A stretch of 64,000 nt of DNA from Jiangella sp. DSM 45060 (GTDB lineage: Bacteria; Actinomycetota; Actinomycetes; Jiangellales; Jiangellaceae): the NCBI RefSeq assembly GCF_900105175.1, contig NZ_LT629771.1, positions 2,976,001 through 3,040,000 on the forward strand. The letters are read 5' to 3'. Made by a program: the position numbers and the translations under genes. The first letter of the stretch is position 1. Each line of letters starts with the position of its first letter. The notes beneath the pieces are model-generated. The model was not told the origin of the DNA. It did not search any database and saw only the letters and a program-made list of their open reading frames with translations. Shown piece after piece: positions 28,621 to 57,589 of this stretch.

Positions 28621-28684
28621 ACGCTAGGGATCCGCCGCCGCCTCGGCAGGACGCCTGCTTGCCCTGCCGACCCCGATCTTGCCC
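28621..28684 (-). promoter_or_regulatory. Promoter with tandem GGGCAAG sites (regulon member 1)
   Basis: Minus strand: -10-like CTAGCGT at 28621-28627, preceded after 19 bp by GGGCAAGCAGGCGTCCTG (28647-28664), and by a second GGGCAAG at 28678-28684, 20 bp further up. From the proximal GGGCAA to the -10 is exactly 37 bp, as at 43597, 43649 and 50349. Confidence 0.65.
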
Positions 28685-28839
28685 GGTCAGCCCGCCCCGC
28701 CGACACCGTCGCACCAGACACCGACCCCGCCGCGCACCCGACCCGGGTGGGTGCGATCCCGCGTGGTGACACCCGCGCCAACTGTTGGCCGCTGTGCCAC
28801 CACGCCCGGCAAGAGGTCTCCCGGCAGGAGGTAGCGCGG

Positions 28840-30189
28840 TCAGGGACGGAGGTCGTCGAACGCCCCGTCGCGGAGGACGTCGGCGACGATCTCGATGGTC
28901 TGGTCGACGTCGGCCTCGGTGTGGGCGGCGGACAGGAACCACAGGCCGCGCGGCACGATGTTGACGCCGCGGCGCAGCAGCCCGGCGTGCAGCCGGGCCA
29001 TGCCCGCGCGGTCGGTCGCGGCGAAGTCGCGGTAGTCGCGAACGGCGCCGGCGCTGGTCAGGTAGGTCTGGAAGACCGGGCCCGGCCCGTCGACGAGCAT
29101 CGGGACGCCCGCGCCGGCGGCGGCGGAGCGGATGCCGTCCATCAGCCGGCCGCCCAGCGTGCGCAGCCGCGGGTACAGCTCGTCGCCGTCGCGCCGCAGC
29201 CGGCCCAGCGTCGCGACGGTCGCGGCCATGCCGATCGGGTTGCTGTTGAAGGTGCCGGCGTGCCCGACGGTGCCCGCCGTGATCTGGTCCATCACCTCGG
29301 CGCGCCCGGCGATCGCGGCCACCGGCAGCCCGCCGGCGATCGCCTTGCCGTACACCGCGAGGTCCGGCACCACGCCGAACCACTCCTGCGCGCCGCCGCG
29401 GGCCAGCCGGAACCCGGTGATGACCTCGTCGAACACCAGCAGCGCTCCGGCGGCGGAGGTCTGCTCGCGCACCGCCTCGAGGAAGCCCGGCACCGGCGCG
29501 ATGCAGCCGGTGTTGCACAGCAGCGGCTCCATGACGACCGCCGCGATCTCGTCGCGGTGCGCGGCCAGCAGCGCGGTGAACGCGTCGAGGTCGTTCCAGG
29601 GCGCGAGGACGAGGTCGGCGGCGGCGCTGGCCTGCTGGCCCCCGCTCGCGGCCACGGCGACCGGCGCCTCCCGCGGGCCGGCCGCGTCGACCGGCGGGTG
29701 CAGGCTCCACAGCGCGGCGTCCAGCCAGCCGTGGTAGTGCCCCTCGAACTTGAGGATCTTCTGCCGGCCGGTGAGGCCGCGGGCCAGCCGCCACGCGCCG
29801 ATGACCGCCTCGGAGCCTACGGTGTTGAACCGCACCAGGTCCGCGCCCGGCACCATCGCCTGGACCAGCTCGGCCGCTTCGATCTCCAGCGGGTGCTGGC
29901 CGGCGTACGCCTGGCCGCGGGCGACCTGCCGGGTGACGGCCTCGACCACCTCGGGCGCGCTGTGGCCCAGGATCATCGGCCCCTGGCCGAGCACGTAGTC
30001 GACGTAGTCGTTGCCGTCGACGTCGGTGAGATGCGCGCCAAGAGCATGGTCGACGTAGACCGGCTCGGGCAGGCCACGCCGGGCGTCGCTGGACACGCCG
30101 GCGGGCAGCACGCGGCTCGCGCGGGCGGCCAGCTCGGCGCCGCGCCGCAGCGGCGTGCGGGTGCCTGCGGCGACGGTCGGGTTCGTCAT
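28840..30189 (-). CDS. Class-III PLP aminotransferase (glutamate-1-semialdehyde aminomutase-like)
   Basis: 449 residues, fold-type I PLP enzyme. Visible: VDGNDYVDYVLGQGP, the phosphate-binding NTVGSEAV near 123, FDEVITGFR with the PLP-pyridine Asp near 243, and the Schiff-base lysine in VYGKAIAGGLP near 272. It is of the HemL-like branch, but a heme role is unlikely here; such proteins also move amino groups between adjacent carbons or act on amino acids and amino sugars. ATG at 30189 after GAGGAGG. It has its own promoter (30219-30247) with a 14-bp palindrome, divergent from the CUT1 operon. Confidence 0.85.
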   Translation of the reverse strand: MTNPTVAAGTRTPLRRGAELAARASRVLPAGVSSDARRGLPEPVYVDHALGAHLTDVDGNDYVDYVLGQGPMILGHSAPEVVEAVTRQVARGQAYAGQHPLEIEAAELVQAMVPGADLVRFNTVGSEAVIGAWRLARGLTGRQKILKFEGHYHGWLDAALWSLHPPVDAAGPREAPVAVAASGGQQASAAADLVLAPWNDLDAFTALLAAHRDEIAAVVMEPLLCNTGCIAPVPGFLEAVREQTSAAGALLVFDEVITGFRLARGGAQEWFGVVPDLAVYGKAIAGGLPVAAIAGRAEVMDQITAGTVGHAGTFNSNPIGMAATVATLGRLRRDGDELYPRLRTLGGRLMDGIRSAAAGAGVPMLVDGPGPVFQTYLTSAGAVRDYRDFAATDRAGMARLHAGLLRRGVNIVPRGLWFLSAAHTEADVDQTIEIVADVLRDGAFDDLRP

Positions 30190-30206
30190 CGATCCTCCTC
30201 GATCTG

Positions 30207-30247
30207 CGGTCGTCCGACCGTAGAGTCCCTCGTCACAGGCGTGTCAA
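30207..30247 (-). promoter_or_regulatory. Promoter of the aminotransferase gene with an internal palindrome
   Basis: Minus strand TTGACA (30242-30247) and TCTACG (30219-30224) with a 17-bp spacer. A perfect 6-2-6 palindrome CGGTCGTCCGACCG at 30207-30220 sits at the start point and would block initiation if bound. The binding protein is unknown. Confidence 0.55.
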
Positions 30248-30273
30248 CCGCACACCGCCGTCACGGCGCAACA

Positions 30274-30338
30274 GGACAACTACGGGACCCTGACGACACG
30301 AACCGCGCTTGCTGGCGCCGTCGCGAGGCCCCTAGCGT
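30274..30338 (+). promoter_or_regulatory. Promoter with tandem GGACAAC-type sites (regulon member 2, weaker)
   Basis: Plus strand CTAGCGT at 30332-30338. A site-like GACACGAACCGCGCTTG at 30295-30311 begins exactly 37 bp upstream of the -10, and a better copy, GGACAACTACGGGACCCTG (30274-30292), starts 21 bp further up. Same tandem geometry as the other members, with a degenerate proximal site. Confidence 0.45.
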
Positions 30339-30377
30339 GACGGCTCCGCCGCACAACCAACGGGAGGACGACGCATC

Positions 30378-31409
30378 GTGGACCAGCTCGGCATGGGCAT
30401 CGTGGGGACGGGCATCATGGCCCGCCAGCACGCCGCCGTGCTCGCCGCCTACCACCGCAGCCGCGTGGCCGGGTGGAGCAGTCGCGACCCCTCGGCCGTC
30501 ACCGGCCTGGACGAGTTCGGCCCGGCGCCGGTGCACGGCGACCTGGCCGAGTTGCTCGCCGACGACGCCGTCGGCGCCGTCCTCGTCGCCACCCCCGACC
30601 ACGCGCACGCCGCGGCCGCGCTCGCCGCCATCGAGGCCGGCAAGCCCGTGCTGGTCGAGAAGCCGCTGGCCACCACGGCCGCCGACGCCCGCCGCATCCG
30701 GGACGCGGCGCGATCGGCCGGGGTCACCGCGATGACGCTCTACAACCACCGCTGGGTGCCGGCCTACTGGCAGGCGCACGAGCGGGCGGCCGGCGGCGCG
30801 CTGGGCACGCCGGTGCTGGCCTACGCCCGGAAGAACGACACGATCTACGTGCCGACGCAGATGCTGGACTGGGCCGACCAGACCTCGCCGTCGCTCTTCC
30901 TCTCCGGGCACGATCTCGACCTCATCCTGTGGTGCTTCGACGACCACGTGGTCGAGGTCTACGCGACCGCGGTGCACGGCGTGCTCCGCGACCGGGGCAT
31001 CGACACCCCCGACGCCGTCCAGGCCCAGCTGCGCCTGGCCGGCGGCGCCGTCGTCACCGTCGAGGCCTGCTGGATCTACCCCGACACGTTCCCCACCATG
31101 ACCGACTCGTTCCTCGAGCTGATCTTCAGCGACGCGGTGATCCACCTGGACCGCAAGCACGAGCAGATCGAGATCGCCACCCACGAGTCGTTCGCCTATC
31201 CGCGCAACCAGCTCGCGGGCCGGGTCGGCGGCAAGCCGTCCGGCTCGATCGCCGGCGCCGTCGAACACTTCGTCGACGCCGTGCTGGACGGCACCCCGCC
31301 GATCGTGTCGATCGACAGCTCGGTGCACGTCACCGAGGTCCTCGCCGCCATCGACCGGTCCTGGCGCTCCGGCCGGCCGGTCGACCTCACCGTGGAGTCC
31401 AACTCATGA
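30378..31409 (+). CDS. Gfo/Idh/MocA-family NAD(P)-dependent oxidoreductase
   Basis: 343 residues. Rossmann start MGIVGTGIMARQH, intact EKP motif in VLVEKPLATT near residue 95, and the catalytic HxxxD-like region LSGHDLDLILW near 178. Likely oxidises or reduces a sugar or cyclitol derivative. GTG at 30378 with GGGAGG about 10 nt upstream. First gene of the eight-gene operon; its stop overlaps the SBP start (ATGA). Confidence 0.88.
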   Translation: MDQLGMGIVGTGIMARQHAAVLAAYHRSRVAGWSSRDPSAVTGLDEFGPAPVHGDLAELLADDAVGAVLVATPDHAHAAAALAAIEAGKPVLVEKPLATTAADARRIRDAARSAGVTAMTLYNHRWVPAYWQAHERAAGGALGTPVLAYARKNDTIYVPTQMLDWADQTSPSLFLSGHDLDLILWCFDDHVVEVYATAVHGVLRDRGIDTPDAVQAQLRLAGGAVVTVEACWIYPDTFPTMTDSFLELIFSDAVIHLDRKHEQIEIATHESFAYPRNQLAGRVGGKPSGSIAGAVEHFVDAVLDGTPPIVSIDSSVHVTEVLAAIDRSWRSGRPVDLTVESNS

Positions 31410-32767
31410 AGACACGTTCGCTCCTCCGCGCCACCGCCGTGGCGACCGCCGTCATGCTGAGCCTGACGGCGTGCATCACCGGCTCCGACGACGGCGACGA
31501 GCCCGAGACCGAGAGCACCGGCGGCGGTGAGTCCGGCGGCGACGCCGCGGCCGAGATCACCGGCCCGCTCGAGGTCGTCAGCTTCTACCCCGAGGGCTCG
31601 CCCGACTTCGAACGGCTCAGCGGCCTGGCCGAGGAGTTCGAGACGCGGCACCCCGGCGTCGACGTCACGCTCACCTTCGGCGGCGGCCAGGACGTGCCGC
31701 AGATCGAGGCCCGCTGGCGCGCCGGCGACCCGCCGGACGTCAACTACGGCTTCCTCGACGCGTCCGCGCCCGACGGCGGCCCGTGGGTGTCGGCCGGCCA
31801 GGTGCTGCCGCTCGCCGACGCCATGGCGCAGCCGCTGGAGGGCTACGACGGCACCTGGGAGGAGGCGATCCTGCCCGGCGTGCTGCCGCTGCTCAGCGTC
31901 GACGACACCATCTACAGCGCGCCCGAGTCGGTGACCACGCTGCAGTTCTTCTACAACGCCGCGCTCTTCGCCGAGCACGGCATCGAGCCGCCGCAGACCT
32001 TCGAGGACCTCGTCGCCGCGGCCGACACGCTGAAGGCGGCCGGCGTCGCGCCGTTCACCGTCACCGGCACGTTCCTGCCGTACCTGCAGATGTACTGGGA
32101 CTACCTGGCGCTGCGCCACATCGGGCTGGAGGGCCTGCAGCAGGCCATCGCCGGCGAGGTGGAGCTGGCGTCGCTGCCCGGCGCCGCCGAGGCCGCCGCT
32201 GACCTGGAGCGGCTGACGTCCAGCGGGTACTTCCTCGACGGCTTCCGCGGCGTCGACTTCACCTCGGCGCAGATGTCGTTCTTCCAGGGCGACGCGGCGA
32301 TGATCCTCATGGGCTCGTGGCTGATCGGCGAGATGGCCGCCGCCATCCCCGAGGGCTTCGAGGTCGGCACGTTCGCGTTCCCGACGGTCGACGGCGGCAG
32401 CGGCGACCAGGACGGCCTGTTCGGCGGCACCAACGGGCAGATCGTCGCGAAGGACGGCGAGAACCCCGACGCCGCCGTGGCGTGGCTCCAGTTCGTCGCC
32501 GAGCCGGAGAACCAGACCGCCTACGTCCAGAACACCGGCGGCATCTCCGCCTACACCGGCATCGCCGCGCCGGAGGGCTTCGAGGACGTCACCGCCATGC
32601 TGGAGGAGGGCGCCGCGTTCGCCCCGTCCTACATGGGCATCCTCGCGCAGAGCCAGGAGGTCCAGAACGCCTACCAGCAGCCGATCGCGCAGCTGTTCTT
32701 CGGCGAGATCGACGGCGCCACCATGCTCAGCCAGATGTCCGACGGTCTGCGGTCGGCCGCGGGCTGA
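31406..32767 (+). CDS. CUT1-type carbohydrate ABC binding lipoprotein
   Basis: 453 residues, SBP family 1. Lipoprotein signal MKTRSLLRATAVATAVML with lipobox LTAC, Cys23, then an acidic Gly/Ser-rich tether. Mature protein begins LEVVSFYPEGSPDFERL and holds the family segments LEEFETRHPGVDVTL-like and FFQGDAAMILMGSW near 305. Binds a sugar or oligosaccharide outside the cell for the two permeases that follow. Confidence 0.92.
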   Translation: MKTRSLLRATAVATAVMLSLTACITGSDDGDEPETESTGGGESGGDAAAEITGPLEVVSFYPEGSPDFERLSGLAEEFETRHPGVDVTLTFGGGQDVPQIEARWRAGDPPDVNYGFLDASAPDGGPWVSAGQVLPLADAMAQPLEGYDGTWEEAILPGVLPLLSVDDTIYSAPESVTTLQFFYNAALFAEHGIEPPQTFEDLVAAADTLKAAGVAPFTVTGTFLPYLQMYWDYLALRHIGLEGLQQAIAGEVELASLPGAAEAAADLERLTSSGYFLDGFRGVDFTSAQMSFFQGDAAMILMGSWLIGEMAAAIPEGFEVGTFAFPTVDGGSGDQDGLFGGTNGQIVAKDGENPDAAVAWLQFVAEPENQTAYVQNTGGISAYTGIAAPEGFEDVTAMLEEGAAFAPSYMGILAQSQEVQNAYQQPIAQLFFGEIDGATMLSQMSDGLRSAAG

Positions 32768-32798
32768 CCGCCGCCCGTACCCGCGGAGAGGAGAAACG

Positions 32799-33698
32799 GT
32801 GCCACGCAGCCGGCCCAACCTGCTCGAGCGACAACGCCGCCGACTCGTGGTGCCGTTCCTCCTGCCCGCCCTGGTGCTGTACGCGCTGTTCATGCTCTAC
32901 CCGGCGTTCACGACGTTCTACGTCGCGCTGACCGAGTGGGACGGCGTGAACGCACCGGAGTGGGTCGGCGCGGCCAACTTCACCCGGCTCACCGAGGACT
33001 CGCTGTTCAGCAGCACGATCACGCACACGATCGTGTTCACGGTGCTCGGCGCGCTGGTGCTGTTCCCCGGCGCGATGTTCTTCGGCTACGTGACGCAGCG
33101 GATGCGGCTGGGCCGGGTGTACCGGTTCCTCATCCTGGCGCCGGTCGCGCTGTCCGTCACCACCGCGGCGCTGCTGTGGAAGTTCCTGGTCGACCCGAAC
33201 TTCGGCGCGGTGCAGAGCGTGCTGCGCGCCGTCGGGCTGGACTCGCTCGCGTCGGTGGAACTGCTCGGACGGCCGTCGACGGCCATGCTCATGGTGGTGC
33301 TGGCGACGGTCTGGCACGGCATCGGGCTGTGGATGATGTTCTTCGCGGCCGCCGCCGAGCGGGTACCGGCCGAGCTCAAGGAGGCCGCGACGCTCGACGG
33401 CGCCAGCTCGTTCCAGGTGTTCCGGCACGTCGTCTGGCCGCTCATGTGGGAGGTCACCCGGACGCTGCTGATCCTCTGGATGATCCAGGGCCTGCAGACG
33501 TTCGCGTTCATCATCGCGATGACGAACGGCGGCCCGCTGCGCGCCACCGAGGTGATCGGCACCTACCTCTACAAGGTCGCGTTCGCGTCGTCCGAGTTCG
33601 GCTACGCCGCGGCCATCGCCGTCGTGCTGTTCGCGGCGATCCTCGTCCTCACGCTGCTCTCCCAGCGGCTCACCCGGCGCGAAAGCGAGCAGTACTGA
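32799..33698 (+). CDS. CUT1-type sugar ABC permease (MalF/UgpA-like)
   Basis: 299 residues, six membrane helices starting at VVPFLLPALVLYALFMLYP. EAA-loop ELKEAATLDGASSFQVFRHVVWP near 200 is the ATPase-contact signature. GTG at 32799 follows GGAGAGGAG. Stop overlaps the next ATG by one base (TGATG). No ATPase gene is present in the operon, so a shared MsiK-type ATPase elsewhere is expected. Confidence 0.92.
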   Translation: MPRSRPNLLERQRRRLVVPFLLPALVLYALFMLYPAFTTFYVALTEWDGVNAPEWVGAANFTRLTEDSLFSSTITHTIVFTVLGALVLFPGAMFFGYVTQRMRLGRVYRFLILAPVALSVTTAALLWKFLVDPNFGAVQSVLRAVGLDSLASVELLGRPSTAMLMVVLATVWHGIGLWMMFFAAAAERVPAELKEAATLDGASSFQVFRHVVWPLMWEVTRTLLILWMIQGLQTFAFIIAMTNGGPLRATEVIGTYLYKVAFASSEFGYAAAIAVVLFAAILVLTLLSQRLTRRESEQY

Positions 33699-34609
33699 TG
33701 ACGACCCCGACCGCCACCCCGCCGGCCGCCGTCGCCGCCGCTCCCCCGCCGGCGCCGTCGTCGCAGCGACGCCGGCCACCGGTCCGGCCCGGCCGCCTGC
33801 TCAGCCATCTCGCGCTCGTGTCGTACTGCCTGACCTCGGTCAGCGCGTTCGTCTGGTGCGTCATGGTGTCGCTGAAGACGAACCCGGAGTTCTTCTCCAG
33901 CAGCCCGTGGTCGCTGCCGCGGGACCCGCAGTTCGGCAACTACGCCGAGGCGTGGAACGGCGCGCAGATCAGCCGGTTCTTCCTCAACAGCCTCTACGTG
34001 ACGGTCACCAGCGTCGGCGTCAGCCTGCTGTTCGCGGTGATGGCGGCGTACGTGCTGGCCAGGGTCGACTTCCCGGGCCGGTCGGTGGTGCGGCTGGTGT
34101 TCCTCAGCGGCCTGATGATGCCGGCCTTCCTGGTGATCGTGCCGCTGTACTTCCTGCTCCGGAACCTCGGGCTGCTCGGTTCGCTGCACGGGCTGGTGCT
34201 GGTGTACATCGCCACCCAGATCCCGTTCAGCATCTACCTGCTGAGCAGCTTCTTCCAGTCGCTGCCGAAGGAGCTGGAGGAGGCCGCGTGCATGGACGGC
34301 GCCTCGCCGACCCGCACGTTCTTCTCCGTCGTGCTGCCGCAGGTGTCGCCGGCGGTCGCCAGCGTGGCGCTGCTGAACACGCTGACGATCTGGAACGAGT
34401 TCTTCTTCGCCCTGGTGTTCCTCACCGACCCGCAGCAGCAGACGATCCCCGTCGGCCTGCTCGGCCTGTCGGTGAACGCGCAGTACAGCGCGAACTGGGT
34501 GCAGCTGTTCGCGGGCCTGGTGATCACCATGATCCCGATGCTCGTGCTCTTCGCCTTCGCGCAGGAACGCATCGCGCGGGGCGTCAGTGTCGGCGCGTTG
34601 AAGGGCTGA
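33698..34609 (+). CDS. CUT1-type sugar ABC permease (MalG/UgpE-like)
   Basis: 303 residues with a Pro/Ala-rich cytoplasmic N-terminus (about 35 residues) and six helices. EAA-loop ELEEAACMDGASPTRTF near 195 and the MalG-like C-terminal ARGVSVGALKG are present. ATG at 33698 overlaps the previous stop. Partner of the MalF-like protein. Confidence 0.92.
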   Translation: MTTPTATPPAAVAAAPPPAPSSQRRRPPVRPGRLLSHLALVSYCLTSVSAFVWCVMVSLKTNPEFFSSSPWSLPRDPQFGNYAEAWNGAQISRFFLNSLYVTVTSVGVSLLFAVMAAYVLARVDFPGRSVVRLVFLSGLMMPAFLVIVPLYFLLRNLGLLGSLHGLVLVYIATQIPFSIYLLSSFFQSLPKELEEAACMDGASPTRTFFSVVLPQVSPAVASVALLNTLTIWNEFFFALVFLTDPQQQTIPVGLLGLSVNAQYSANWVQLFAGLVITMIPMLVLFAFAQERIARGVSVGALKG

Positions 34610-34610
34610 G

Positions 34611-43596: not shown

Positions 43597-43640
43597 ACGC
43601 TAGAGGTGCCGGCGCGCTTCGCCCAGGCGCGTGTTTGCGC
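43597..43640 (-). promoter_or_regulatory. Promoter with GCGCAA-type site (regulon member 3)
   Basis: Minus strand CTAGCGT (43597-43603); GCGCAAACACGCGCCTG at 43624-43640 starts exactly 37 bp upstream. It lies back-to-back with the divergent member at 43649, leaving 8 bp between the two sites. Confidence 0.6.
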
Positions 43641-43648: not shown

Positions 43649-43692
43649 GGGCAAGAATGCGTCCTGTGCCGGCCGGTCGCGGTGCCTATCGT
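43649..43692 (+). promoter_or_regulatory. Promoter with GGGCAAG site driving a probable leaderless mRNA (regulon member 4)
   Basis: GGGCAAGAATGCGTCCTG at 43649-43666, 19 bp, then CTATCGT at 43686-43692; again 37 bp from GGGCAA to the -10. The ATG at 43700 is 7 nt after the -10, so the transcript should start at or next to it. Confidence 0.65.
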
Positions 43693-43699: not shown

Positions 43700-45349
43700 A
43701 TGATCCGCATCATCACCGACCGGAAGGCGGCCGAGGCGGCCCGGCGCGACGGCCGCGACGTGTGGTCGGCGCCGGCCGCCGTGGAGGCGCTGGCCGTACT
43801 CGGCGTCCCGGCCACCGTCCACGACGTCGCCGACGGACCACTGCCGGCCACGACCGCGCCCGTCCTCGTCGTCGACCATCCCGGCGATGCCGCGGCCGCC
43901 CTGCTGGCGTGGACGGCGGACGGCGGCGGGCTGGTGGTCTGCGGACACGACGCGGGCTGGACCGGCATTGCGGCGTTCCCGGCGCCCGACAACGCCCTCG
44001 CCGAGGTCGGTGGGCAGCGGCTGCGCGCCTTCGGCGGCTGGGCCCTCGGCGAGACCGGCGAGGTGGTCGCCCGCTGGGCCGACGGCCGCCCGGCGATCGT
44101 CACGGTGCCGCACGGACGCGGCACCATCGCCGTCGTCGGGCCGGACCTGTGGCACACGCTGGTGCGGATCGCCCAGGGCCACCCGGTGCACGCCGACGGC
44201 GTCGCGCCCGCGGACGGCTCGGCGCCGGTCGACGACGGCTGGCTGAAGACCGACGACGGCATCGCGCTCTCGTGGACCGAGGACCGCGCCGTCCCCGACC
44301 CGGACGCCCCCTACGAGCACGTCCACCCGCCGGCGCGCAGCCTGCCGTACTTCGCCACCGCGCAGGCCGACCGCTGGCGCGAGGTCCTCCTCGGCCTGCT
44401 CCTCGACAGCGGCGAGGTGCTCCCTCTGGTCGCGCCGTGGCCGGACGGCGCGCCCGCCGCCGCGCACGTCAGCCACGACTCCGACGCCAACGACGACCCG
44501 TCCGCCCGCGCCGCGCTGGACGCGTTCGCCGCGGCGGACGTGCCGGTGACCTGGTGCTTCCTGTACCCGGGCGGCTACTCGCAGGCCGTGTACGACGAGG
44601 TGGTGGCGGCCGGGCACGAGCCGGGGCTGCACTACAACGCGATGCTCGACACCCCGGACTGCACGTGGGGCTTCGACCGGCTGCGCGACCAGCTGGCCTG
44701 GGCGACGTACCAGGTGCGCGGCGCGGCGATCGTCACGAACAAGAACCACTTCACCCGCTGGGAGGGGTGGGACGAGTTCTACCTGTGGTGCGAGCGGCTG
44801 GGCCTGCGGGTCGACCAGAGCCACGGGCCGAGCGTCCAGGGCGCCGTCGGCTTCCCGTTCGGCACCTGCCACCCGCACCACCCGATCACCGGCGCCGCGC
44901 ACGGCAACCGGCCGATCGACGTGCTCGACCTCCCGCTGCAGACCCAGGACCTCTGGCTCACCTGCACGGACGAGGTGCGGGACGGGTTCGTGGACGAGGC
45001 GCTGCGCCGGCACGGCGTGGTGCACCTGCTGTTCCACGGCCAGCACCTGCAGCACCACGCCGAGGTCCGCGCGTCCTTCGCCGCGACGGTCGCCCGGCTG
45101 CGCGCCGCCGGGGTCAGGTTCTACACCAGCGTCGCGCTGGCCGACTGGTCGGAGCGACGGCGCGCGCTGCGGGTCCACCTGACCGGCCTCACCGTCACCG
45201 TCGAGGGCGACGTCGAGGGCGTCGCGCTGCTGCTCCCGCCGCACCTCGTCCCGGCCGGCGCCGAGCGGCACGAGCGGGTGCAGCGCTACGGCCGCGCCTT
45301 CACCCAGGTGCACCTCGACGGCCACAGCCTGCGGCTGGTCGCGGCATGA
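43700..45349 (+). CDS. Polysaccharide-deacetylase-like protein with N-terminal GATase/ThuA-like domain
   Basis: 549 residues, no signal peptide. Residues 1-180 alternate strands and helices with PVLVVDHPGD and GGGLVVCGHDAGW, like the ThuA/GATase-like domain of carbohydrate proteins. From about 245, AAAHVSHDSDANDDPSAR carries the HxSxD motif of NodB-type deacetylase barrels, followed by WCFLYPGGYS, GLHYNAML and FPFGTCHPHHP. It may deacetylate or otherwise hydrolyse a sugar or amide. Start: ATG at 43700, because the -10 leaves no room for the longer frame (43631). ATGA overlap with the aminotransferase gene. Confidence 0.68.
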   Translation: MIRIITDRKAAEAARRDGRDVWSAPAAVEALAVLGVPATVHDVADGPLPATTAPVLVVDHPGDAAAALLAWTADGGGLVVCGHDAGWTGIAAFPAPDNALAEVGGQRLRAFGGWALGETGEVVARWADGRPAIVTVPHGRGTIAVVGPDLWHTLVRIAQGHPVHADGVAPADGSAPVDDGWLKTDDGIALSWTEDRAVPDPDAPYEHVHPPARSLPYFATAQADRWREVLLGLLLDSGEVLPLVAPWPDGAPAAAHVSHDSDANDDPSARAALDAFAAADVPVTWCFLYPGGYSQAVYDEVVAAGHEPGLHYNAMLDTPDCTWGFDRLRDQLAWATYQVRGAAIVTNKNHFTRWEGWDEFYLWCERLGLRVDQSHGPSVQGAVGFPFGTCHPHHPITGAAHGNRPIDVLDLPLQTQDLWLTCTDEVRDGFVDEALRRHGVVHLLFHGQHLQHHAEVRASFAATVARLRAAGVRFYTSVALADWSERRRALRVHLTGLTVTVEGDVEGVALLLPPHLVPAGAERHERVQRYGRAFTQVHLDGHSLRLVAA

Positions 45350-46575: not shown

Positions 46576-46582
46576 GCAGCGG

Positions 46583-47911
46583 CTACGTCGGTGTGTAGAT
46601 GAGGAAGTCGAGCCGGGAGAAGGCCGACGATCCGGCCGGGCGGGCCGACAGCAGCATCCGCACGCCGGTGCCGGCGTCCGGGACCCACGAGCCGGTCTCC
46701 TTGCGCTCCAGGTTCGGCGAGTACACCTGCGCCGCCCCGCTGACGGGGAACGTCTCCGTCGTCCAGCTGGTGCCGGTGGTCGAGCGCAGCACGTGCAGCG
46801 ACGACGAGCCGGCCGCCGGCGTGCCGAGCACGAACCGCTCACCGCTCGCGGCGACGGCCAGCTGGGCGTGGTTCTCGTAGGTGCCGAGATCGACCGGCGA
46901 GCCGGGCAGCGTCACCGAGCCGGCGTTGCCCTTCCAGTAGTAGAGGTGCGACGCCCCGGAGATCATCTTGTAGAAGAGGACGTGTGGCTGGTTCGACGAG
47001 TCGACGACGAGGTCGACGGCGTCGGTCCAGTTGTTCACCCCGTCCGGTGACGGGCTGGACGAGACCATGTAGCGCTGCCCGGACGGGAACGAGGCGCCGC
47101 CGTCGGTCGACCGCCACAGCTGCACCCCGTGGATCGTGGCGCTGCTGCCGGTGTTGAGCACGGTCTGGTTGAACAGCAGCCACACCTCGCCGCTGGACGT
47201 GCCCGGCCGGACCCGTGGATAGAGGTACGCCTCGTTCACCCCGGGGTTGGCCACCAGCGTCGTCGTCTCGGTGTTCGTCCAGGTGTCGAACCTGCTGACG
47301 TTCAGGCTCCAGTCGGCCTTGCTGTAGGCGTGGTAGATGTAGCGGCGGTCGTTGTCGATGGCCATGCCGCCGTAGTACCGCTCCGCGCCGGCCGAGCGCA
47401 CCGACTGGTCGCTCCACGCGCCGAAGTCGAACGAGCCGTCACCGAGCCGCGACGAGAACTGCAGCCGCACCAGGTACACCCGCTCCATCGACGCGCCACT
47501 GGCCGCCGCGACGCCCGGGTAGCACGGCCCGCCGGTGTAGCACGGCACGGTCAGCCAGAGCCGGTTGCCGGAGTCCAGCAGCAGCGACGGCGGCTGGTAC
47601 ACCCACTGGTTCAGCGTCACCGCGACCGTCCAGTTGACGCCGTCGGGCGACTTCCAGATCCGCGCGATCCACGGGTACGACGTGCCCGAGCCGTCCAGCG
47701 TCGTGGTGTAATACCAGCCGTTGGAGTCGCGGACGATCTTCGGCAGTTGCGGGCTGTGCATCGGGGTCACGTTGGTGGCACCGATGGTGGACGAGATCGT
47801 CGAGACGGTCGTGGACGACGCCGCGGCGGGCGCGATCGGGCCGGCCAGCGCGGTGGCGACGACGGCGAGCGCGGCGAGCGCCGCGGACAGCAGCCTCCTC
47901 ACGTCACTCAC
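46583..47911 (-). CDS. Exported BNR-type beta-propeller protein (paralogue A2)
   Basis: 442 residues, Sec signal peptide (MSDVRRLLSAALAALAVVAT, cleavage near AAASS). Same layout as 27274-28590: YPWIARIWKSPDGVNWTV near 80, CYTGGPCYPGV, AERYYGGMAID, LWRSTDGGASFPSG, and a final hydrophobic strand. GTG at 47911 overlaps the stop of the upstream propeller gene by 8 bp, so both are translated from one message. Function unknown; probably acts outside the cell with paralogue B2. Confidence 0.78.
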   Translation of the reverse strand: MSDVRRLLSAALAALAVVATALAGPIAPAAASSTTVSTISSTIGATNVTPMHSPQLPKIVRDSNGWYYTTTLDGSGTSYPWIARIWKSPDGVNWTVAVTLNQWVYQPPSLLLDSGNRLWLTVPCYTGGPCYPGVAAASGASMERVYLVRLQFSSRLGDGSFDFGAWSDQSVRSAGAERYYGGMAIDNDRRYIYHAYSKADWSLNVSRFDTWTNTETTTLVANPGVNEAYLYPRVRPGTSSGEVWLLFNQTVLNTGSSATIHGVQLWRSTDGGASFPSGQRYMVSSSPSPDGVNNWTDAVDLVVDSSNQPHVLFYKMISGASHLYYWKGNAGSVTLPGSPVDLGTYENHAQLAVAASGERFVLGTPAAGSSSLHVLRSTTGTSWTTETFPVSGAAQVYSPNLERKETGSWVPDAGTGVRMLLSARPAGSSAFSRLDFLIYTPT

Positions 47912-50294
47912 CGCCCAGCCGGATCGGCCCGACGATGACCCGCACCGACGCCGACGTGCTCGGCTGGTGCGCGAGGTCGCCGCCGTACACCGCGACCAGC
48001 GTGTGCCGGCCCGGCCCGCCCACGTCGGACGCCCGGACGGTGACGGTGGCGGCGCCGTCGCGCAGCTCCCCCGCCGCGACGGCCGCGCCCGGCGACCCGT
48101 CGGGACCCGCCAGGTGCAGCGTCACCGTCCCCTGCGGCGAGCCGGGCGGGCTGCCGACCTCGACGGTCACCACGGCCGGGCCGCCGGGCGACGCCGGCCG
48201 CAGCCCCGTCGACGCCGTGGTGGAGCTCGGCGCCGGCGCGATGTCGGGCAGCGTGCGCAGCAACACGCCGCCGCTGCCCCAGTACGCGCGGTCCGACCCG
48301 TCGAACGCGAGCGTCCGGTAGTAGCCGCTGCCCGGCGTCGCCACCGTCTCGACGGTGTCGGTGCCGGCCGGGATGCGCACGATCGCACCGCCGGTGTGGC
48401 CGTACAGGTCGCCGCCGGGACCGTCGATCAGGCCGAGCAGCGTGCCGCCCGGGAACGCGCCCAGCACCGTCACGACGCCGGTCGACGGGTCCATCCGGAA
48501 CCAGGTCCCGTCCGCCGACCCGTACAGCGTGCCGTCGGCGGCGGTCTCCAGCGTGAGGATGCGCGTGGCGCCAGGCACCGGCACAACTGAGGCGAGGACC
48601 GTCCCGTCGTCCGGGTCGACCGTCAGCACCTGCGCGGAACCACCGGCGTCGGTGTCGTCGCCGTAGCGGGTGGTGCCGGCGTAGAGGACGTCGTCACCGG
48701 CCGCCACGGCGAAGAAGTGCTGGTCGCCGGCCAGGCCGCGGAACGACTCGACCTCGTACGTCACCGGGTCGATCGCGGTCAGCGCGCCGCGCAGCGCGCC
48801 GTACGCTCCCGACGACGCGACCCAGACGCGGCCGTCCGGCCCGACCTCCATGTCCCACGGCCGGTACTGGCTCTCGCCGACCGGGCCGAGATCGCGCGGG
48901 TTCGACGTCGCTGACGTGCCGGGGTTCCACGGCTGGGACGGGTCGAAGACGGTGACCACGTTGTTGATGTACGAGCCGATGAAGATCTTGTCACCGGCGG
49001 TCACCATCGACAGGATCTCGCCGGTACGTCCGGGCGCGACGTTGCCGTACACGGTGGTGTCGCCGGTGTCCGGGTCGTAGCCGAACAGCGCGTTCGTCTC
49101 GTACGTGCCGCCGTAGACCGACCCGTCCGGGCCGGACACCAGCGCGGTGATGTTCGTCGGGTTGCCCGGCAGCGTCAGCTGGTGCGTCCACACCTCGCCG
49201 GTCGCCGGGTTCCACCGGCCGAGCATGCCGTTGCTGCCGACGCTGGTGAACCACTGCTGGCCGCCGATCGTCACCGGCCATATCCGCGCCGCGGACACGA
49301 ACGTCGGCGCCGTCCCGGTGGGAGTGGTGGCGAGCGTGTCACCGTCGACGGCGACGATGCCGCCGGCGCCGGTCGCGTAGAAGTCGTTCGGGTCGGCGCC
49401 ACCCTGCGGGGCGAAGCCCATGCCGGTGATGCCCGGCACCTCGGCGTCGAACGTCATCGTCGCCGCGTCGAACCGGACGATGCGCGAGTCCGGCGTCACC
49501 AGCTGCACGTACACCCAGTCGCCGATGCGCACGGCGTTGTAGGCGAACGAGTAGTGCTGGTACGCCGCCGGCAGCACCTCGGTGGCCGCGCCGGTCGCGA
49601 TGTCGACGACCAGCACGCTGGCCTCGGTGCCCTGGGCGACCACCAGCCGGTTCGCGTCCAGCACCGCGAGCCCCTTGGGGTACGTGCGGGTGGAGACGAC
49701 GAGGCGGACAGCGTCCGTGACGGGGTCGTACTCGTAGACGCCGGCGCCGGAGTGCACGCCGCAGTAGACCTTGCCGGTGTACGGCGACACCGTGATGCCG
49801 AAGCACATGATGCCGGTCGGCATCGTCGCCACCAGGTCGATCGTGTCGGTGACCGGGTCGTACTCCCAAATCTGCGACGCGCTGGACGAGTTCAGCGGGC
49901 CGAGGTAGACGTGCCCGTCCGGTGCGGCGGCGACGTGGTAGCCGCCCCACGCGCCGGGCATCGGCAGCTCGGTGCGGACGGCGCCGGTCTCGGGGTCGAC
50001 GCCGAAGAACGTCACGCCGTCGCTGGGCGCGTTGTACGTGCTGCCGTAGAGGGTCGGGTCGCCGTTGACGTCGTCGGCGAGGACGGTGTCGAGGACGAGG
50101 TAGGTGGAGATGGGGATGCCGAGGTTCTCGACCACGCCGGGCGCGGCCGCGGGTGCGGCCGGGGCCGCCGGCGCGGCCGGGGTCGCGGGCGCGGCCGCCG
50201 CGGGCGCGGCCGCCGCGGGCGCCAGCAGCGCGGTCGCGGCGACCGCGGCCAGCGCGGCGAGACGTCGTGGGAATCGTGTACGCAGGACGGGCAT
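47904..50294 (-). CDS. Exported Vgb/YncE-like beta-propeller with C-terminal Ig-like domain (paralogue B2)
   Basis: 796 residues. Signal peptide MPVLRTRFPRRLAALAAVAA followed by an Ala/Pro-rich stretch to about 50. Two propeller-like halves (about 55-680) match paralogue B1 strand for strand (YGGTYETNALFGYDPDTG, YRPWDMEVGPDGRVWV). Residues about 695-790 form an Ig-like domain (VVTVEVGSPPGSPQGTVTL, HTLVAVYGGD), typical of extracellular anchoring or spacing. ATG at 50294 after AGGAG. First of a two-gene operon with paralogue A2, behind a tandem-site promoter. Confidence 0.8.
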   Translation of the reverse strand: MPVLRTRFPRRLAALAAVAATALLAPAAAAPAAAAPATPAAPAAPAAPAAAPGVVENLGIPISTYLVLDTVLADDVNGDPTLYGSTYNAPSDGVTFFGVDPETGAVRTELPMPGAWGGYHVAAAPDGHVYLGPLNSSSASQIWEYDPVTDTIDLVATMPTGIMCFGITVSPYTGKVYCGVHSGAGVYEYDPVTDAVRLVVSTRTYPKGLAVLDANRLVVAQGTEASVLVVDIATGAATEVLPAAYQHYSFAYNAVRIGDWVYVQLVTPDSRIVRFDAATMTFDAEVPGITGMGFAPQGGADPNDFYATGAGGIVAVDGDTLATTPTGTAPTFVSAARIWPVTIGGQQWFTSVGSNGMLGRWNPATGEVWTHQLTLPGNPTNITALVSGPDGSVYGGTYETNALFGYDPDTGDTTVYGNVAPGRTGEILSMVTAGDKIFIGSYINNVVTVFDPSQPWNPGTSATSNPRDLGPVGESQYRPWDMEVGPDGRVWVASSGAYGALRGALTAIDPVTYEVESFRGLAGDQHFFAVAAGDDVLYAGTTRYGDDTDAGGSAQVLTVDPDDGTVLASVVPVPGATRILTLETAADGTLYGSADGTWFRMDPSTGVVTVLGAFPGGTLLGLIDGPGGDLYGHTGGAIVRIPAGTDTVETVATPGSGYYRTLAFDGSDRAYWGSGGVLLRTLPDIAPAPSSTTASTGLRPASPGGPAVVTVEVGSPPGSPQGTVTLHLAGPDGSPGAAVAAGELRDGAATVTVRASDVGGPGRHTLVAVYGGDLAHQPSTSASVRVIVGPIRLGGE

Positions 50295-50348: not shown

Positions 50349-50412
50349 AACCTAGGCGGACGGCAGGCGCGGCGACAGCCGCATAGTTGCCCGGCGGACC
50401 GGAGACTTGCCC
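50349..50412 (-). promoter_or_regulatory. Promoter with tandem GGGCAA sites (regulon member 5)
   Basis: Minus strand CTAGGTT (50349-50355); GGGCAACTATGCGGCTG ends at 50392, exactly 37 bp above the -10, and GGGCAAG at 50406-50412 lies 20 bp further up. Same geometry as 28621-28684. Confidence 0.65.
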
Positions 50413-50433: not shown

Positions 50434-50489
50434 GCCTTTGCAATGAGCACCTCTACGTATCGATGCGTAGAGGTGCTCATTGCAAAGGC
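50434..50489. repeat. 56-bp near-perfect palindrome, copy 2 of the CTTTGCAATGAGCACC family
   Basis: Pairs base by base around 50461/50462 with a single T-G wobble (50458/50465). The outer CTTTGCAATGAGCACC matches the arms at 10635-10697; inner bases differ but stay complementary. Here it follows the end of a leftward gene and precedes the promoter of the next leftward operon, where it could end transcription. Confidence 0.75.
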
Positions 50490-50519: not shown

Positions 50520-51410
50520 TCACCCGGCGCGGAAGAACCGCTTCCAGTTCTCGTGCACGATCTGGTCCTGCACGTCCACCGGCAGCGTCGGCAGCGGCGT
50601 CCCGGCGACCACGTCGTTGACCCGGCGCAGCCCCTCCAGCGTCTGGTCCACCGTCGCACTCGGGAAGTCCGACGCGAACAGCAGCTTGCCCGTCACGCCG
50701 TACTCGAACGCCGTCGTCATCGCGTGCCAGAACCGGTACGGCCGGTAGTGCAGCGCGGAGATGTCGGCCCACACGTTGGGGGCCTTCCGCATCAGCGCGA
50801 CGACGTCCTCCTCCCAGGGGTGGCCGAGGTGGGCGATGATCACCCGCAGCGACGGGAACCGCATGACCAGCCGTTCCAGCAGCAGCGGCTGGGCGAACTC
50901 CAGCCGGGCCGTCGTCGGGAACGTGGTGCCCTGGTGGACGATCACCGGCAGGTCGTGCCGCGCGCAGTACTCGAACACGCCCCACAGCGAGGTGTCGCGC
51001 GGATCCCAGTGCTGGCACGTCGGCCCGACCTTGAGGCCGCGCAGTCCGAGGTCCTCGACGCAGCGGACCAGCTCGTCCACCGCCCCGGGCGAGCCTGGGT
51101 TCACCGACGCCCAGCCCTCGAGCCGGTCCGGATGCTCGCGGACGTAGCCGGCGATGACGTCGTTGGGCACGTCGAACCCGGTCGGCTTGGCCGCCATCCC
51201 GAACACGACGACGCGCTCGGCCTGCTGCGCCGCCGCCCAGTGCTCGTCCGGCGTGGAGTCGTAACAGTGCAGGTCGAGGTGGGCGGCGTTGGTGAGGCCG
51301 CCGCTGCGCTCGAGCTTGACCAGCTTCGCCGCCAGCGCCTCGCCGGCGGTGCGGTCGCTGATGTGGTCCGGGTACCACATCACGTGCGTGTGGACGTCGA
51401 CGATCCCCAT
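50520..51410 (-). CDS. Amidohydrolase_2 family hydrolase/decarboxylase
   Basis: 296 residues with a full metal set: MGIVDVHTHVMWYPD (HxH), GLKVGPTCQHWD near 168, VIVHQGTTFP near 195, IIAHLGHPW near 230, LFASDFPS near 265. COG2159-like, close in style to ACMSD and related decarboxylases/hydrolases. ATG at 51410 overlaps the AraC stop, so it is in one operon with the regulator. Substrate unknown. Confidence 0.85.
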   Translation of the reverse strand: MGIVDVHTHVMWYPDHISDRTAGEALAAKLVKLERSGGLTNAAHLDLHCYDSTPDEHWAAAQQAERVVVFGMAAKPTGFDVPNDVIAGYVREHPDRLEGWASVNPGSPGAVDELVRCVEDLGLRGLKVGPTCQHWDPRDTSLWGVFEYCARHDLPVIVHQGTTFPTTARLEFAQPLLLERLVMRFPSLRVIIAHLGHPWEEDVVALMRKAPNVWADISALHYRPYRFWHAMTTAFEYGVTGKLLFASDFPSATVDQTLEGLRRVNDVVAGTPLPTLPVDVQDQIVHENWKRFFRAG

Positions 51411-52603
51411 CAGCCGACCGCCCGCAGCACGGGCGTCGCGACCTGGCGGCGGTACTCGCTCGGCGTCACGTGGAAGGTCCGCTTGAACAGCTCGCGGAAC
51501 CGCTTCGGCGCCTGGTAGCCGACCTGCTCGGCGACCAGCTCGACCGGCAGGTCGGTCTCGGCCAGCAGCCGCCGCCCGTGCCGCATGCGCACCGCCGTCA
51601 GGTACTTGAGGAACGTGGTGCCGAGCTCGCGCTGGAACAGGTGGCTGATGTAGTACGGGCTGACGAACACCGCCTCGCTGACGGTGACCAGCCGCAGGTC
51701 GTCGGCATAGTGGTCCTGGATGTACCGCTCGACGACGGCCAGGACGTGCCGGGCCGGCGACGGCGCCGTGTGCGACGCGACGATCCGCGGCAGCAGCTGC
51801 TCCAGCCACAGCACCAGGTAGGAGCGGTCGTGGATGTCGTACATCTCGACCACCTCGTTGAGCGGCAGCCGCGAACAGGCCGCGATCCAGTCGGTCGAGC
51901 CGTCCGACAGCCGCCGCTGACCGGCCACCTCCAGCGCGTACAGCACCTCGGCGGCCAGCCACTCGCGCAGCACGTCGGGAGTGACGCCGTCGACGGCGCT
52001 GACCCGCTCGATCCAGGACCGCAGCGTCGCCACCGCGCCGGTCGCGTCGCCGCGACGGATGCAGCGGGCCAGCCGCTCCTCGACGCGGTCCGGCACCGGC
52101 ACCGGGGCGGCGCCACCGGCGTGGGCGGCCCGCACCTCGGCGAGGTCGTAGACGGCGTCGCCGCCGCTGACCAGCTTGTGGTCCAGCGCCGACACCGCCT
52201 CCGCGGTCGCCGCCTCGACCCGCGCCGACCCGGTGTGCGGCCGGCTGATGCCGACCGTCACGGCCACCCCGCAGGCGGCCTGGACGCGGTCGCGCACCAG
52301 CGCGGCGAACCGCCGCCCCGTGGCGCGCAGCTCGGTCGGGTCGGCGCCGTGGAAGGTCACCATCCAGGCGTCCGGCGGCACGGCGACGACGGCGCCGTGG
52401 CGCTCCGGCGCGTAGCCGGCGGCGCAACGCTCGACGGCGGCAGCGGCGGCCGCGAGCATGCCCTCCGCCCACTCGTCGCCGCGGGACAGGCGGCTCACCT
52501 CGAAGTCGTCGACGTCGGCCAGGACCACGAGCACGTGGCCCTCGTCACCGGCCTGGTCGGGCACGGTGATCGCCTGGCCGAGGACGGTCGAGTGGTGTCG
52601 CAT
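51410..52603 (-). CDS. AraC-family regulator with a degenerate GGDEF-like N-domain
   Basis: 397 residues. C-terminal AraC/XylS DNA-binding domain (about 295-395) with both helix-turn-helix units: SEAVFVSPYYISHLFQREL and VELVAEQVGYQAPKRFRELF, then FHVTPSEYRR. Residues 20-175 resemble a nucleotide-cyclase-like fold (VLVVLADVDDFEVSRLSRGD, VAVTVGISRPHTG) but the GG(D/E)EF signature is absent, so it may be a sensor rather than an enzyme; the middle part is helical. ATG at 52603 after GGAGGA. It is the only AraC protein in the window and the best candidate to bind the tandem GGRCAA sites (inference). Confidence 0.88.
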   Translation of the reverse strand: MRHHSTVLGQAITVPDQAGDEGHVLVVLADVDDFEVSRLSRGDEWAEGMLAAAAAAVERCAAGYAPERHGAVVAVPPDAWMVTFHGADPTELRATGRRFAALVRDRVQAACGVAVTVGISRPHTGSARVEAATAEAVSALDHKLVSGGDAVYDLAEVRAAHAGGAAPVPVPDRVEERLARCIRRGDATGAVATLRSWIERVSAVDGVTPDVLREWLAAEVLYALEVAGQRRLSDGSTDWIAACSRLPLNEVVEMYDIHDRSYLVLWLEQLLPRIVASHTAPSPARHVLAVVERYIQDHYADDLRLVTVSEAVFVSPYYISHLFQRELGTTFLKYLTAVRMRHGRRLLAETDLPVELVAEQVGYQAPKRFRELFKRTFHVTPSEYRRQVATPVLRAVG

Positions 52604-52683: not shown

Positions 52684-52697
52684 TCTGATATACCAGA
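52684..52697. promoter_or_regulatory. FadR/GntR-type operator candidate
   Basis: TCTGATATACCAGA is palindromic apart from one base pair and fits the T-x-G-T-(x)-A-C-x-A style of FCD-type GntR operators (GATATACC core). It sits just before the KDGDH-like gene, whose operon also encodes a GntR regulator, suggesting autoregulation. A TTGACC at 52645 is a possible -35. It differs from the AGG-T-CCT palindrome, so the two GntR proteins would have separate targets. Confidence 0.45.
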
Positions 52698-52723
52698 GCC
52701 GTCCCTTCGTGGAAAGGCCAACC

Positions 52724-56128: not shown

Positions 56129-56796
56129 CCGAGGACCGGCCGACGATCCAGGAAGCGCCGCTGATCCGCGACCAGGTGTACAAAGTGCTGCTGACCAAGC
56201 TGATCAATGGCGACCTCGAGCCCGGTGACCGCATCACCGAGCGGGTCACGGCGCAGGAGCTGGGCATCAGCACCACGCCGGTGAAGGAGGCGCTGCGCCG
56301 GCTCGAGAACGAGGGGTTCGTACGCACCATGCCGCGGCGCGGCATCGTCGTCGGCGAGAACGCGCTGACCTCGTTCGAGCAGGTCATCACCGTGCGGGCG
56401 TGGCTGGAAGGGCTCGGCGCCCGGCTGTGCGCGGCCCGGGTGGCCGACGGCGGCCTGCCCGGCGTCGCCGCCCTGACCGAGCCGCTGGAGCTGATGAAGG
56501 ACCCGATCCTGCGCCCGGTGCCGGAGATCATCGAGATCAACGCCAGCTTCCATGACGCGATCCGCGACCTCTCCGGCAACCGCGTCATCGTCCAGTTCCT
56601 CGGCACGCTGCTCGGCGTCGACGCGGCCGTGCGCGAGCGGGCGCTGTCCGACCCCGACGAGCTGCAACGCGGCAACGCCGAGCACATCGACGTCGGCGAC
56701 GCGATCCTCGACGGCGACCCGGACCGCGCCGAGGCGCTGATGCGCAGCCACGTGCTGCGCTCCGGCGACCACACGCTGCACGCCAGGCCGTCATGA
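56122..56796 (+). CDS. GntR-family regulator (FCD type)
   Basis: 224 residues. Winged helix at 15-85 with GDLEPGDRITERVTAQELGI and TTPVKEALRRLENEGFV, then a helical FCD domain with His residues in NASFHDAIRDL and LMRSHVLRSG. ATG at 56122. Placed inside the operon it likely controls; the palindrome at 52684-52697 is its best candidate site. Confidence 0.9.
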   Translation: MVTEDRPTIQEAPLIRDQVYKVLLTKLINGDLEPGDRITERVTAQELGISTTPVKEALRRLENEGFVRTMPRRGIVVGENALTSFEQVITVRAWLEGLGARLCAARVADGGLPGVAALTEPLELMKDPILRPVPEIIEINASFHDAIRDLSGNRVIVQFLGTLLGVDAAVRERALSDPDELQRGNAEHIDVGDAILDGDPDRAEALMRSHVLRSGDHTLHARPS

Positions 56797-57542
56797 CGGC
56801 GCTGCTGGCCGAGCTGACCCGCGCCGCGGTCGCGCGGCGGGCGCCGGACGCCGTCGCCGTCGTGCCGGTCGGGGCGTGCGAGCAGCACGGGCCGCACCTG
56901 CCGCTGGGCACCGACCTCATGGTGGCCGAGCACCTGGCCGCCGCGGCCGCGGACCGGCTGACCGGGGTGGTGGACGTCCTCGTCGCGCCGGGCGTCGCGG
57001 TCGGGTACTCGCCGCACCACGTGCCGATCGGCGCGACGCTGACCACCGGGGTGGGCACGCTGCTGGCCCAGCTGCGCGACGCCTGCGCCGGTCTGGCCGC
57101 GGCCGGGTTCGGCCGGATCTTCCTGCTCAACGGGCACGGCGGCAACGCCGAGCTGATCGTCGTCGCCGCCCGCGAGGCCGGTCAGGAGCTGCGGGTGGTC
57201 GTCGGCGCCGGGTCGTACTGGGTCATGGCGTGGGACGAGCTGGTCGCGGCCGGCGCGCAGGACCGCGGCCGGCTGCCCGGCCACGCCGGCGCGTTCGAGA
57301 CGTCGCTGGTGCTGGCGCTGCGCCCTGACCTCGTCGACGCCCCGCCGCACCGGCCGGGCGCCCCGTTCGCGCGCAACCCGGCCGGCTACTGGGGCCGCTA
57401 CCACGTGGAGCGGCCGGACGCGATGGCGGCGGGCGACGGGTACTCCGACGACCCCTCGGCCGCCACCGCTGACGACGGCCGCCGCTACCTCGACGCCGCC
57501 ACCGGCGCCGTCGCCGCGGCCCTGCGCGAGTTCGCCGCCTGA
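56793..57542 (+). CDS. Creatininase-family metal-dependent amidohydrolase
   Basis: 249 residues. VGACEQHGPHLPLGTDLMV near 30 (metal-binding E-x-H and D), FLLNGHGGNAEL near 108 and GHAGAFETSL near 163 are the family signatures. Members open cyclic amides or cleave formamides. ATG at 56793 overlaps the gntR stop. Last gene of the operon, followed 3 bp later by the promoter of the transglutaminase-like gene. Confidence 0.9.
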   Translation: MTALLAELTRAAVARRAPDAVAVVPVGACEQHGPHLPLGTDLMVAEHLAAAAADRLTGVVDVLVAPGVAVGYSPHHVPIGATLTTGVGTLLAQLRDACAGLAAAGFGRIFLLNGHGGNAELIVVAAREAGQELRVVVGAGSYWVMAWDELVAAGAQDRGRLPGHAGAFETSLVLALRPDLVDAPPHRPGAPFARNPAGYWGRYHVERPDAMAAGDGYSDDPSAATADDGRRYLDAATGAVAAALREFAA

Positions 57543-57544
57543 CA

Positions 57545-57589
57545 GGACAAGTCTGGGCCTGTCGCCGCGGCGCCCGCGTTCCGTAGCCT
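57545..57589 (+). promoter_or_regulatory. Promoter with GGACAAG site (regulon member 6)
   Basis: GGACAAGTCTGGGCCTG at 57545-57561, then GTAGCCT at 57583-57589, 38 bp from GGACAA (one more than the other members). Immediately follows the creatininase-family stop. Confidence 0.5.

Follow-up and report, generated by a model that had tools for sequence, protein, structure and literature searches.

The 64-kb stretch of DNA analysed here (the window) is part of the 7.49-Mb single-contig genome of Jiangella sp. DSM 45060. At about 19.7–59.0 kb it carries an island of genes for enzymes, a solute-binding-protein importer, exported propeller proteins, and AraC and GntR regulators, which is kept whole or partly in six other Jiangella genomes. 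Six promoters, all of them inside this island and named P1 to P6 below, share a short element placed at a nearly constant distance from the -10 hexamer, and the AraC-family protein encoded in their midst is its probable reader. The genes concerned, taken from our own GC-frame calls, are the following.

27274..28590 (-), P1 target: signal-peptide-like start by eye; no family found by domain searches
30378..34609 (+), P2 target operon: Gfo/Idh enzyme at its head and solute-binding protein (both by search), then two further open reading frames (ORFs)
41554..43569 (-), P3 target: DUF6923-type, Kelch-like by domain search; signal-peptide-like start by eye
43700..45349 (+), P4 target: no visible signal peptide by eye; no family found by domain searches
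47904..50294 (-), P5 target: Kelch/NHL-like with an Ig-like C-terminus by domain search; signal-peptide-like start by eye
50520..51410 (-), amidohydrolase (Amidohydro_2, Pfam), directly downstream of the AraC gene
51410..52603 (-), AraC-family regulator, the proposed activator: C-terminal double helix-turn-helix (HTH) and GGDEF_2-like N-terminal domain (Pfam)
57612..59012 (+), P6 target: transglutaminase-like, with a weak F5/8 C match, by domain search

The regulator ends in a domain of some 100 residues that contains two HTH motifs and marks the AraC/XylS family. Pfam recognises HTH_18 (2.2e-24) and HTH_AraC (5.7e-14), and residues 290–387 or so match the solved domains of AraC, MarA, SoxS and a xylose regulator in sequence. 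The N-terminus scores 24.1 bits against GGDEF_2, slightly below the cut-off of 24.5. Its gene and the adjoining amidohydrolase gene presumably share one transcript, and the two ORFs that follow the solute-binding protein in the 30378 operon would, judged by position, be permeases. A preliminary description of this DNA had counted five of the targets as exported or enzyme-like units. Judged by eye, a signal-peptide-like start is present in the 27274, 41554 and 47904 proteins and absent from those of 43700 and 57612; 30378 encodes the Gfo/Idh enzyme.

The element can be written G(G/C)RCAA-N4-GCGnCCTG-like. A unit is about 18 bp long and consists of box A, G(G/C)RCAA (CGACAC at 30294), a 4-base gap, and box B, which is GCGTCCTG, GCGCCTG, GCGGCTG or GGGCCTG, and CGCGCTTG at P2. 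The six -10 hexamers, whose positions are assigned by sequence only, are TAGCGT (three times), TATCGT, TAGGTT and TAGCCT. The initial T of the hexamer lies 38 bp from the start of box A, or 39 bp at P6 and at the degenerate unit of P2. The sites are listed here with their conservation among the Jiangella genomes aligned (5–7 per promoter).

28679..28684 (-), P1 distal box A, GGGCAA, 58 bp from the -10; in 5/5 aligned genomes, GCGCAA in one
28647..28664 (-), P1 proximal site GGGCAAGCAGGCGTCCTG; box A 28664–28659, box B 28654–28647
28621..28626 (-), P1 -10, TAGCGT
30274..30279 (+), P2 distal box A, GGACAA, 59 bp from the -10; the same in 7/7 genomes
30294..30311 (+), P2 degenerate proximal site CGACACGAACCGCGCTTG, box A CGACAC, 20 bp past the distal box
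30333..30338 (+), P2 -10, TAGCGT
43624..43640 (-), P3 single site GCGCAAACACGCGCCTG, box A GCGCAA, 38 bp from the -10; in 5/5 genomes having the gene
43597..43602 (-), P3 -10, TAGCGT
43649..43666 (+), P4 single site GGGCAAGAATGCGTCCTG, divergent from P3, 38 bp from the -10; in 7/7 genomes
43687..43692 (+), P4 -10, TATCGT
50407..50412 (-), P5 distal box A, GGGCAA, 58 bp from the -10; in 7/7 genomes, with 20-bp spacing in all
50375..50392 (-), P5 proximal site GGGCAACTATGCGGCTGT, box A at 50392, 38 bp from the -10
50349..50354 (-), P5 -10, TAGGTT
57545..57561 (+), P6 single site GGACAAGTCTGGGCCTG; in 7/7 Jiangella and in the orthologous promoter of two Dactylosporangium
57584..57589 (+), P6 -10, TAGCCT

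Read directly, the site coordinates of the preliminary description are all correct, and so is its near-constant spacing, apart from a count one base short that ran to the C of CTAG: the distance is 38 bp at 28664, 43649, 43640 and 50392 and 39 bp at 57545. The second copies it placed at three units are also there. Those at 28684(-) and 50412(-) lie 20 bp upstream of their partners, and 30274(+) is itself the distal copy, with the degenerate CGACAC at 30294 as its partner. P1, P2 and P5 thus have a second unit 20 bp upstream, and P3, P4 and P6 have a single one. Two details of the wording have to be changed. Taken literally, GGRCAA-N5-GCGnCCTG is absent from the window (five exact matches elsewhere in the genome vs three for the reversed pattern), the gap being N4 at 28664 and 43649 and the second box reading GCGCCTG, GGGCCTG, GCGGCTG or CGCGCTTG at the other sites; and the box at 43640 is GCGCAA, not GGRCAA. 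In all six promoters the unit ends 20–22 bp before the -10, where it overlaps or abuts the -35 place, and this, with direct repeats of 20–22 bp, is consistent with the class II activation that had been suggested. A YTG lies 23–25 bp ahead of the -10, within box B, in 6/6 promoters. At P4, the -10 at 43687–43692 and the start codon at 43700 would together give a nearly leaderless mRNA.

The phasing is unlikely to be an accident of base composition. The two strands of the window together contain 29 copies of GGRCAA, and in six cases TAGNNT follows at 6–120 bp, all of them at 38/39 or 58/59 bp. Three of these strict pairs lie at 38/39 bp; when the window was resampled 100 times with a first-order Markov model, such pairs numbered 0.03 on average and 1 at most. 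The same words in the six orthologous stretches form 32 pairs, 31 of them at 38/39 or 58–60 bp. A held-out test was also done, in which each promoter and its orthologues were removed, a profile was built from the other five, and 127,876 positions were ranked. With the -10 included, P1 and P4 rank 5 and P5 and P6 rank 6, with only training sites ahead of them; P3 ranks 7, where a shifted reading of P2 stands ahead of it in addition to the training sites. With P2 removed, 30294 comes out as the best untrained position in the window; it lies one base from the base first assumed, which ranked 487.

Alignment of the orthologous promoters points the same way. Invariant columns number 33/36 in box A, 39/48 in box B and 35/36 in the -10, vs 34/108 in the spacer before the -10; because the alignments were registered on the -10 word and on CAA in box A, the figures for these two are biased upwards, and box B follows box A in register. 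The rows of each promoter come from seven close species and are not independent. The distal unit lies 20–21 bp upstream in 19/19 rows of P1, P2 and P5, as expected of the direct repeats of AraC/XylS sites, and the degenerate unit at 30294 keeps its register in 7/7 genomes. Some variation is tolerated: box A of P4 is GCGCAA or CGGCAA in 3/7 genomes, and the distance at P6 is 39 bp in 3/7 (including DSM 45060) and 38 bp in 4/7.

Where the element is found also points to a local regulator. The searches used a profile derived purely from sequence, from 38 aligned sites, with 150 candidates scored per genome after the first look. The six promoters of DSM 45060 score 31–51 bits, and the best position elsewhere in its genome scores 17.1. 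Across 12 Jiangella genomes, 39 matches reach 29.1 bits or more, and all 39 lie at the island in the seven genomes that carry an orthologue of this AraC. Of these, 38 are training rows. The untrained one, at the end of contig G011:C94 (J. ureilytica), reads GGGCAAGATCGGGGCACGGGAGGGCAAGCAGGTGTCCTG with CTACCGT ahead of an 86% identical orthologue of the 27274 gene (P1). A search of the genome and related genomes, proposed earlier as a check, finds strong matches confined to the island of AraC carriers, the pattern of a pathway-specific regulator. The parallel check on genome-wide frequency had a mixed outcome: GGRCAA-N32-TAGNNT occurs twice in 7.49 Mb and its reversed control also twice, so the count is no evidence, and the location is, both copies falling in the island.

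Paralogues and other genera allow the link to the AraC to be examined further. Genes related to the 47904 propeller give 34 matches, found in all 12 Jiangella genomes, of which 30 could be contrasted and four have no locus. A site at the right distance is present at 13/13 loci in islands with this type of AraC and at 0/17 others. One of the 13 is independent, a paralogous locus of J. anatolica (G005:C219), whose AraC is 52–54% identical with very similar HTH segments; its propeller promoter has GGACAA 59 bp before TAGCGT, the distal phase of P2. Beyond the order Jiangellales, Dactylosporangium sucinum and D. fulvum (Micromonosporales) have an AraC at 58–59% together with many of the same genes. 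The two best positions for the Jiangella profile, out of 42,124 and 42,112 in the two records, lie in the promoters of orthologues of two targets. The top position is in the promoter of the transglutaminase-like gene, with GGGCAATTCTGCGCCT 39 bp before TACGGT, and the second is in that of the 27274 orthologue, where CCGCAA at 38 bp ranks 6th and 3rd and the repeat spacing is 22 bp. In a covariance-model search of these loci the transglutaminase promoter came third, with coding-region matches of Dactylosporangium at the top; it came first with the two-box profile of fixed spacing. Among more distant relatives, no convincing copy of the element was seen at Nonomuraea loci (AraC at 38–40%) or at a J. 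rhizosphaerae locus (28%), the two-box profile covering five of the six Nonomuraea loci and J. rhizosphaerae with two best scores that reach 13.7. An AraC search of 393 genomes of the class at E 1e-80 found no carrier outside Jiangella, the Dactylosporangium records coming from another collection.

Taken together, the observation of phased, conserved sites confined to genomes and loci with this AraC is real, and its interpretation is very probably right: the element would be the binding site of the AraC-family protein 51410–52603, and this protein a pathway-specific class II activator with six target promoters in a single conserved catabolic island. We put the probability of this reading at roughly 0.85. 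The protein was already the candidate named in the preliminary description, and it has gained from the confinement of strong sites to its island, the co-occurrence with its orthologue in 7/7 Jiangella, the ceiling of 20.7 bits in 5/5 genomes lacking it, and the recurrence of sites beside related AraCs in Dactylosporangium and J. anatolica. One AraC monomer would bind per unit of about 18 bp, with its two HTH motifs at box A and, about 10 bp further on, at box B. A protein bound to the proximal unit may cover the -35 place and touch RNA polymerase there, a contact that could compensate for a poor -35 (YTGnnn). At P1, P2 and P5 the second unit, 20 bp upstream, is offset by roughly two turns of the helix and would face the same way, an arrangement that suits a tandem dimer. 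The N-terminal domain may sense an inducer, which probably derives from the substrate of the island.

Care must be taken with this reading, as a number of observations weigh against it. The boxes without the -10 are weaker: held-out ranks become 7 for P1, 64 for P3, 3 for P4 and 7 for both P5 and P6, and P2 at its first-assumed base falls to 43,672 (487 with the -10). On the assigned -10 positions, box B and a weak -35 (YTGnnn) coincide in the Jiangella promoters, and the CCTG part of the element may act as a -35 as much as an AraC box. The two Dactylosporangium promoters keep the GCGCC of box B with no YTG at the -35 place, and for this reason box B is favoured as a protein contact. A tandem dimer would not be general, with no recognisable second unit at P3, P4 and P6. 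Twelve of the 13 site-bearing propeller loci are P3 or P5 orthologues themselves, and the propeller gene at G005:C77, with no such AraC nearby, shows a degenerate likeness of the site. At G005:C219 the GGACAA site was seen by eye and word, and the two-box profile (38/39 bp) does not rank it first. The second Dactylosporangium position is a distal box, GCGCAA 60 bp before TAGCGT, and strict GGRCAA...TAGNNT words were not found in the two Dactylosporangium records. Weak matches do occur in AraC-less genomes, the best of five such genomes reaching 20.7 bits (E 0.003), next after the 39. The J. anatolica orthologue of 27274 has lost the element and has no such promoter, and no site was seen ahead of the AraC gene itself in Jiangella. 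Finally, AraC, GntR, sites and genes travel together, and co-occurrence alone cannot separate two regulators.

This last point bears on a very unlikely alternative, that the linked GntR/FCD regulator (56122–56796) binds the element and the AraC does not. The island also contains its gene, and both Dactylosporangium and the paralogous locus of J. anatolica have a linked relative. The sites of GntR/FCD proteins, however, are short palindromes, and the element is a direct repeat. The gntR-bearing operon also has a palindrome of its own, TCTGATATACCAGA at 52684, which is identical in seven Jiangella and whose core TGATATACCA is kept in two Dactylosporangium. Use of the sites by a regulator encoded elsewhere, another AraC or a response regulator, can draw on at least ten other AraC-like HTH regions in the genome and on tandem GGGCAA boxes at 21–22 bp in six other places, one of them beside an AraC gene. 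Against these stand strong sites found only in the island and in genomes with this AraC, which recur in another order beside the same type of AraC, and such a regulator is hardly to be expected.

Highly improbable, too, is the idea that an alternative sigma factor recognises the element, or that Jiangella promoters have it as a general feature. The YTG of box B does sit at the -35 place with a 17–19 bp spacer in 6/6 promoters, but box A, 38–39 bp before the -10, is too distant to be a -35, and three promoters carry a second copy of it 20 bp upstream. Scores of at most 17.1 bits outside the island and 20.7 in the five AraC-less genomes, vs 31–51 for the six, also argue against a general feature. 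Chance, in the form of a short GC-rich word and a loose -10 chosen by eye, deserves mention: the originally described pattern, with up to three mismatches, matches 132 times in the window vs 89 expected, too many to pick out sites, and the fixed-spacing word fares no better than its reversed control. The phasing, conservation, held-out and cross-order tests all speak against it, and its probability is practically negligible.

The proposed binding of the AraC has clear precedents. According to excerpts of the published accounts, XylS binds two direct repeats at Pm, its two recognition helices contacting the box A and the box B of each repeat (PMC5481539), and AggR at fimbrial operons of E. coli needs only a single site, 21–22 bp upstream of the -10 and overlapping the -35 (PMC6392122). 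The Jiangella units share the paired boxes with the former and the placement, ending 20–22 bp before the -10, with the latter. Given this placement and the unit spacing of 20–22 bp, the layout is the known one of AraC-family activators that overlap the -35. The sequences differ: XylS reads TGCA and GGTA 6 bp apart in 15-bp repeats, as excerpted, whereas here GGRCAA and a GCGnCCTG-like box are 4 bp apart and 3/6 promoters show only one clear unit. AggR differs in sequence, host and genes. Regulon reconstructions for rhamnose and for Caldicellulosiruptor, again as excerpted, describe AraC-family motifs as direct or tandem repeats with 21-bp periodicity upstream of promoter elements (PMC3870299, PMC8579813). 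They too involve local AraC-family regulators of importers and catabolic genes, although the regulators and motifs are others and the Jiangella protein has a GGDEF_2-like N-terminus.

What is gained is a probable regulator, a defined operator and six targets for an island of genes with few known functions. Proteins that matched no family (27274, 43700) and propellers are grouped with an importer in one putative response and can be tested together. For the AraC field, the island offers naturally occurring versions of a single operator (one unit, two in tandem, or a half-degenerate form), all at nearly the same phase. The regulon is new but its kind is well known; it is useful rather than surprising, and the understanding of AraC activators is unchanged. 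A fuller picture, speculative and rather unlikely to be right as drawn, is that the island encodes an undescribed catabolic pathway with exported propellers; that a degenerate GGDEF-type domain lets the AraC sense the inducer of the pathway, perhaps a ligand resembling a nucleotide; and that promoter strength is graded by the way one 18-bp unit is arranged (a lone proximal unit, a tandem pair, or a distal unit with a degenerate proximal one), always in the same phase to the -10.

The AraC regulon is probably one layer of control and not that of the whole island. The earlier view of one regulon is right in that six promoters share the element, but it was overstated, as the 27274 orthologue that lost the element and three promoters with elements of their own make clear. 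The 28840 aminotransferase promoter has a conserved TTGACA...TACGGT, the 19716 promoter a ACATAGGTCCTATGT palindrome, and the 52724 operon, which holds gntR, the palindrome TCTGATATACCAGA at 52684–52697, likely the GntR operator. These suggest that the island is probably under at least three kinds of control.

Several other candidates were considered and set aside. The genomic position 3497408 (L075), at 17.1 bits, has no box A on inspection. At 6118 (+), GGGCAA lies 38 bp from TAAGGT and might have been a seventh member; the J. anatolica orthologue reads GCCGCAT there, with the neighbouring CCTAGG palindromes kept. Tandem GGGCAA-N13-16-GGGCAA occurs at eight places genome-wide vs two in the reversed control. 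The six places outside the island have 21- or 22-bp spacing and no proven link, the 20-bp spacing being found only in the island's two. One of the six, L021 1501–1527 (G000:C1:3118055–3118081), has 21-bp spacing and lies between a different AraC gene (283 amino acids) and a divergent gene; maybe a related box A is read there by another AraC.

CCTAGG/ATAGGTCCTAT-type palindromes occur at three promoters (2353–2367, 6139–6169 and 19684–19698), one of them beside a second GntR gene (2536–3222), of whose product they are perhaps the operator. J. anatolica retains the 6139/6160 pair. A dispersed, nearly perfect palindrome, TTTGCAATGAGCACC...GGTGCTCATTGCAAAG, is found in the window at 50435–50488 and 10634–10697. 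With arms 8–26 bp apart there are 11 copies in DSM 45060 (the 10634 copy, with a longer loop, is outside these), 23 in G004, 11 in G009 and 1 in G002, and none in the eight other Jiangella or in the reversed control. The tip is ATCGAT in 11/11 DSM 45060 copies and ACCGGT in copies of the other three species, as if the copies were evolving in concert. Fifteen of 16 copies inspected are intergenic, nine of them between converging genes, which is like a bidirectional terminator or a repetitive extragenic palindromic (REP)-like element. Lastly, at 37858–37912, the 18-base unit GGACAGCCACACCGACCC is repeated three times head-to-tail within the amidohydrolase ORF 36770–38725, whose protein alignments break in three orthologous genomes.

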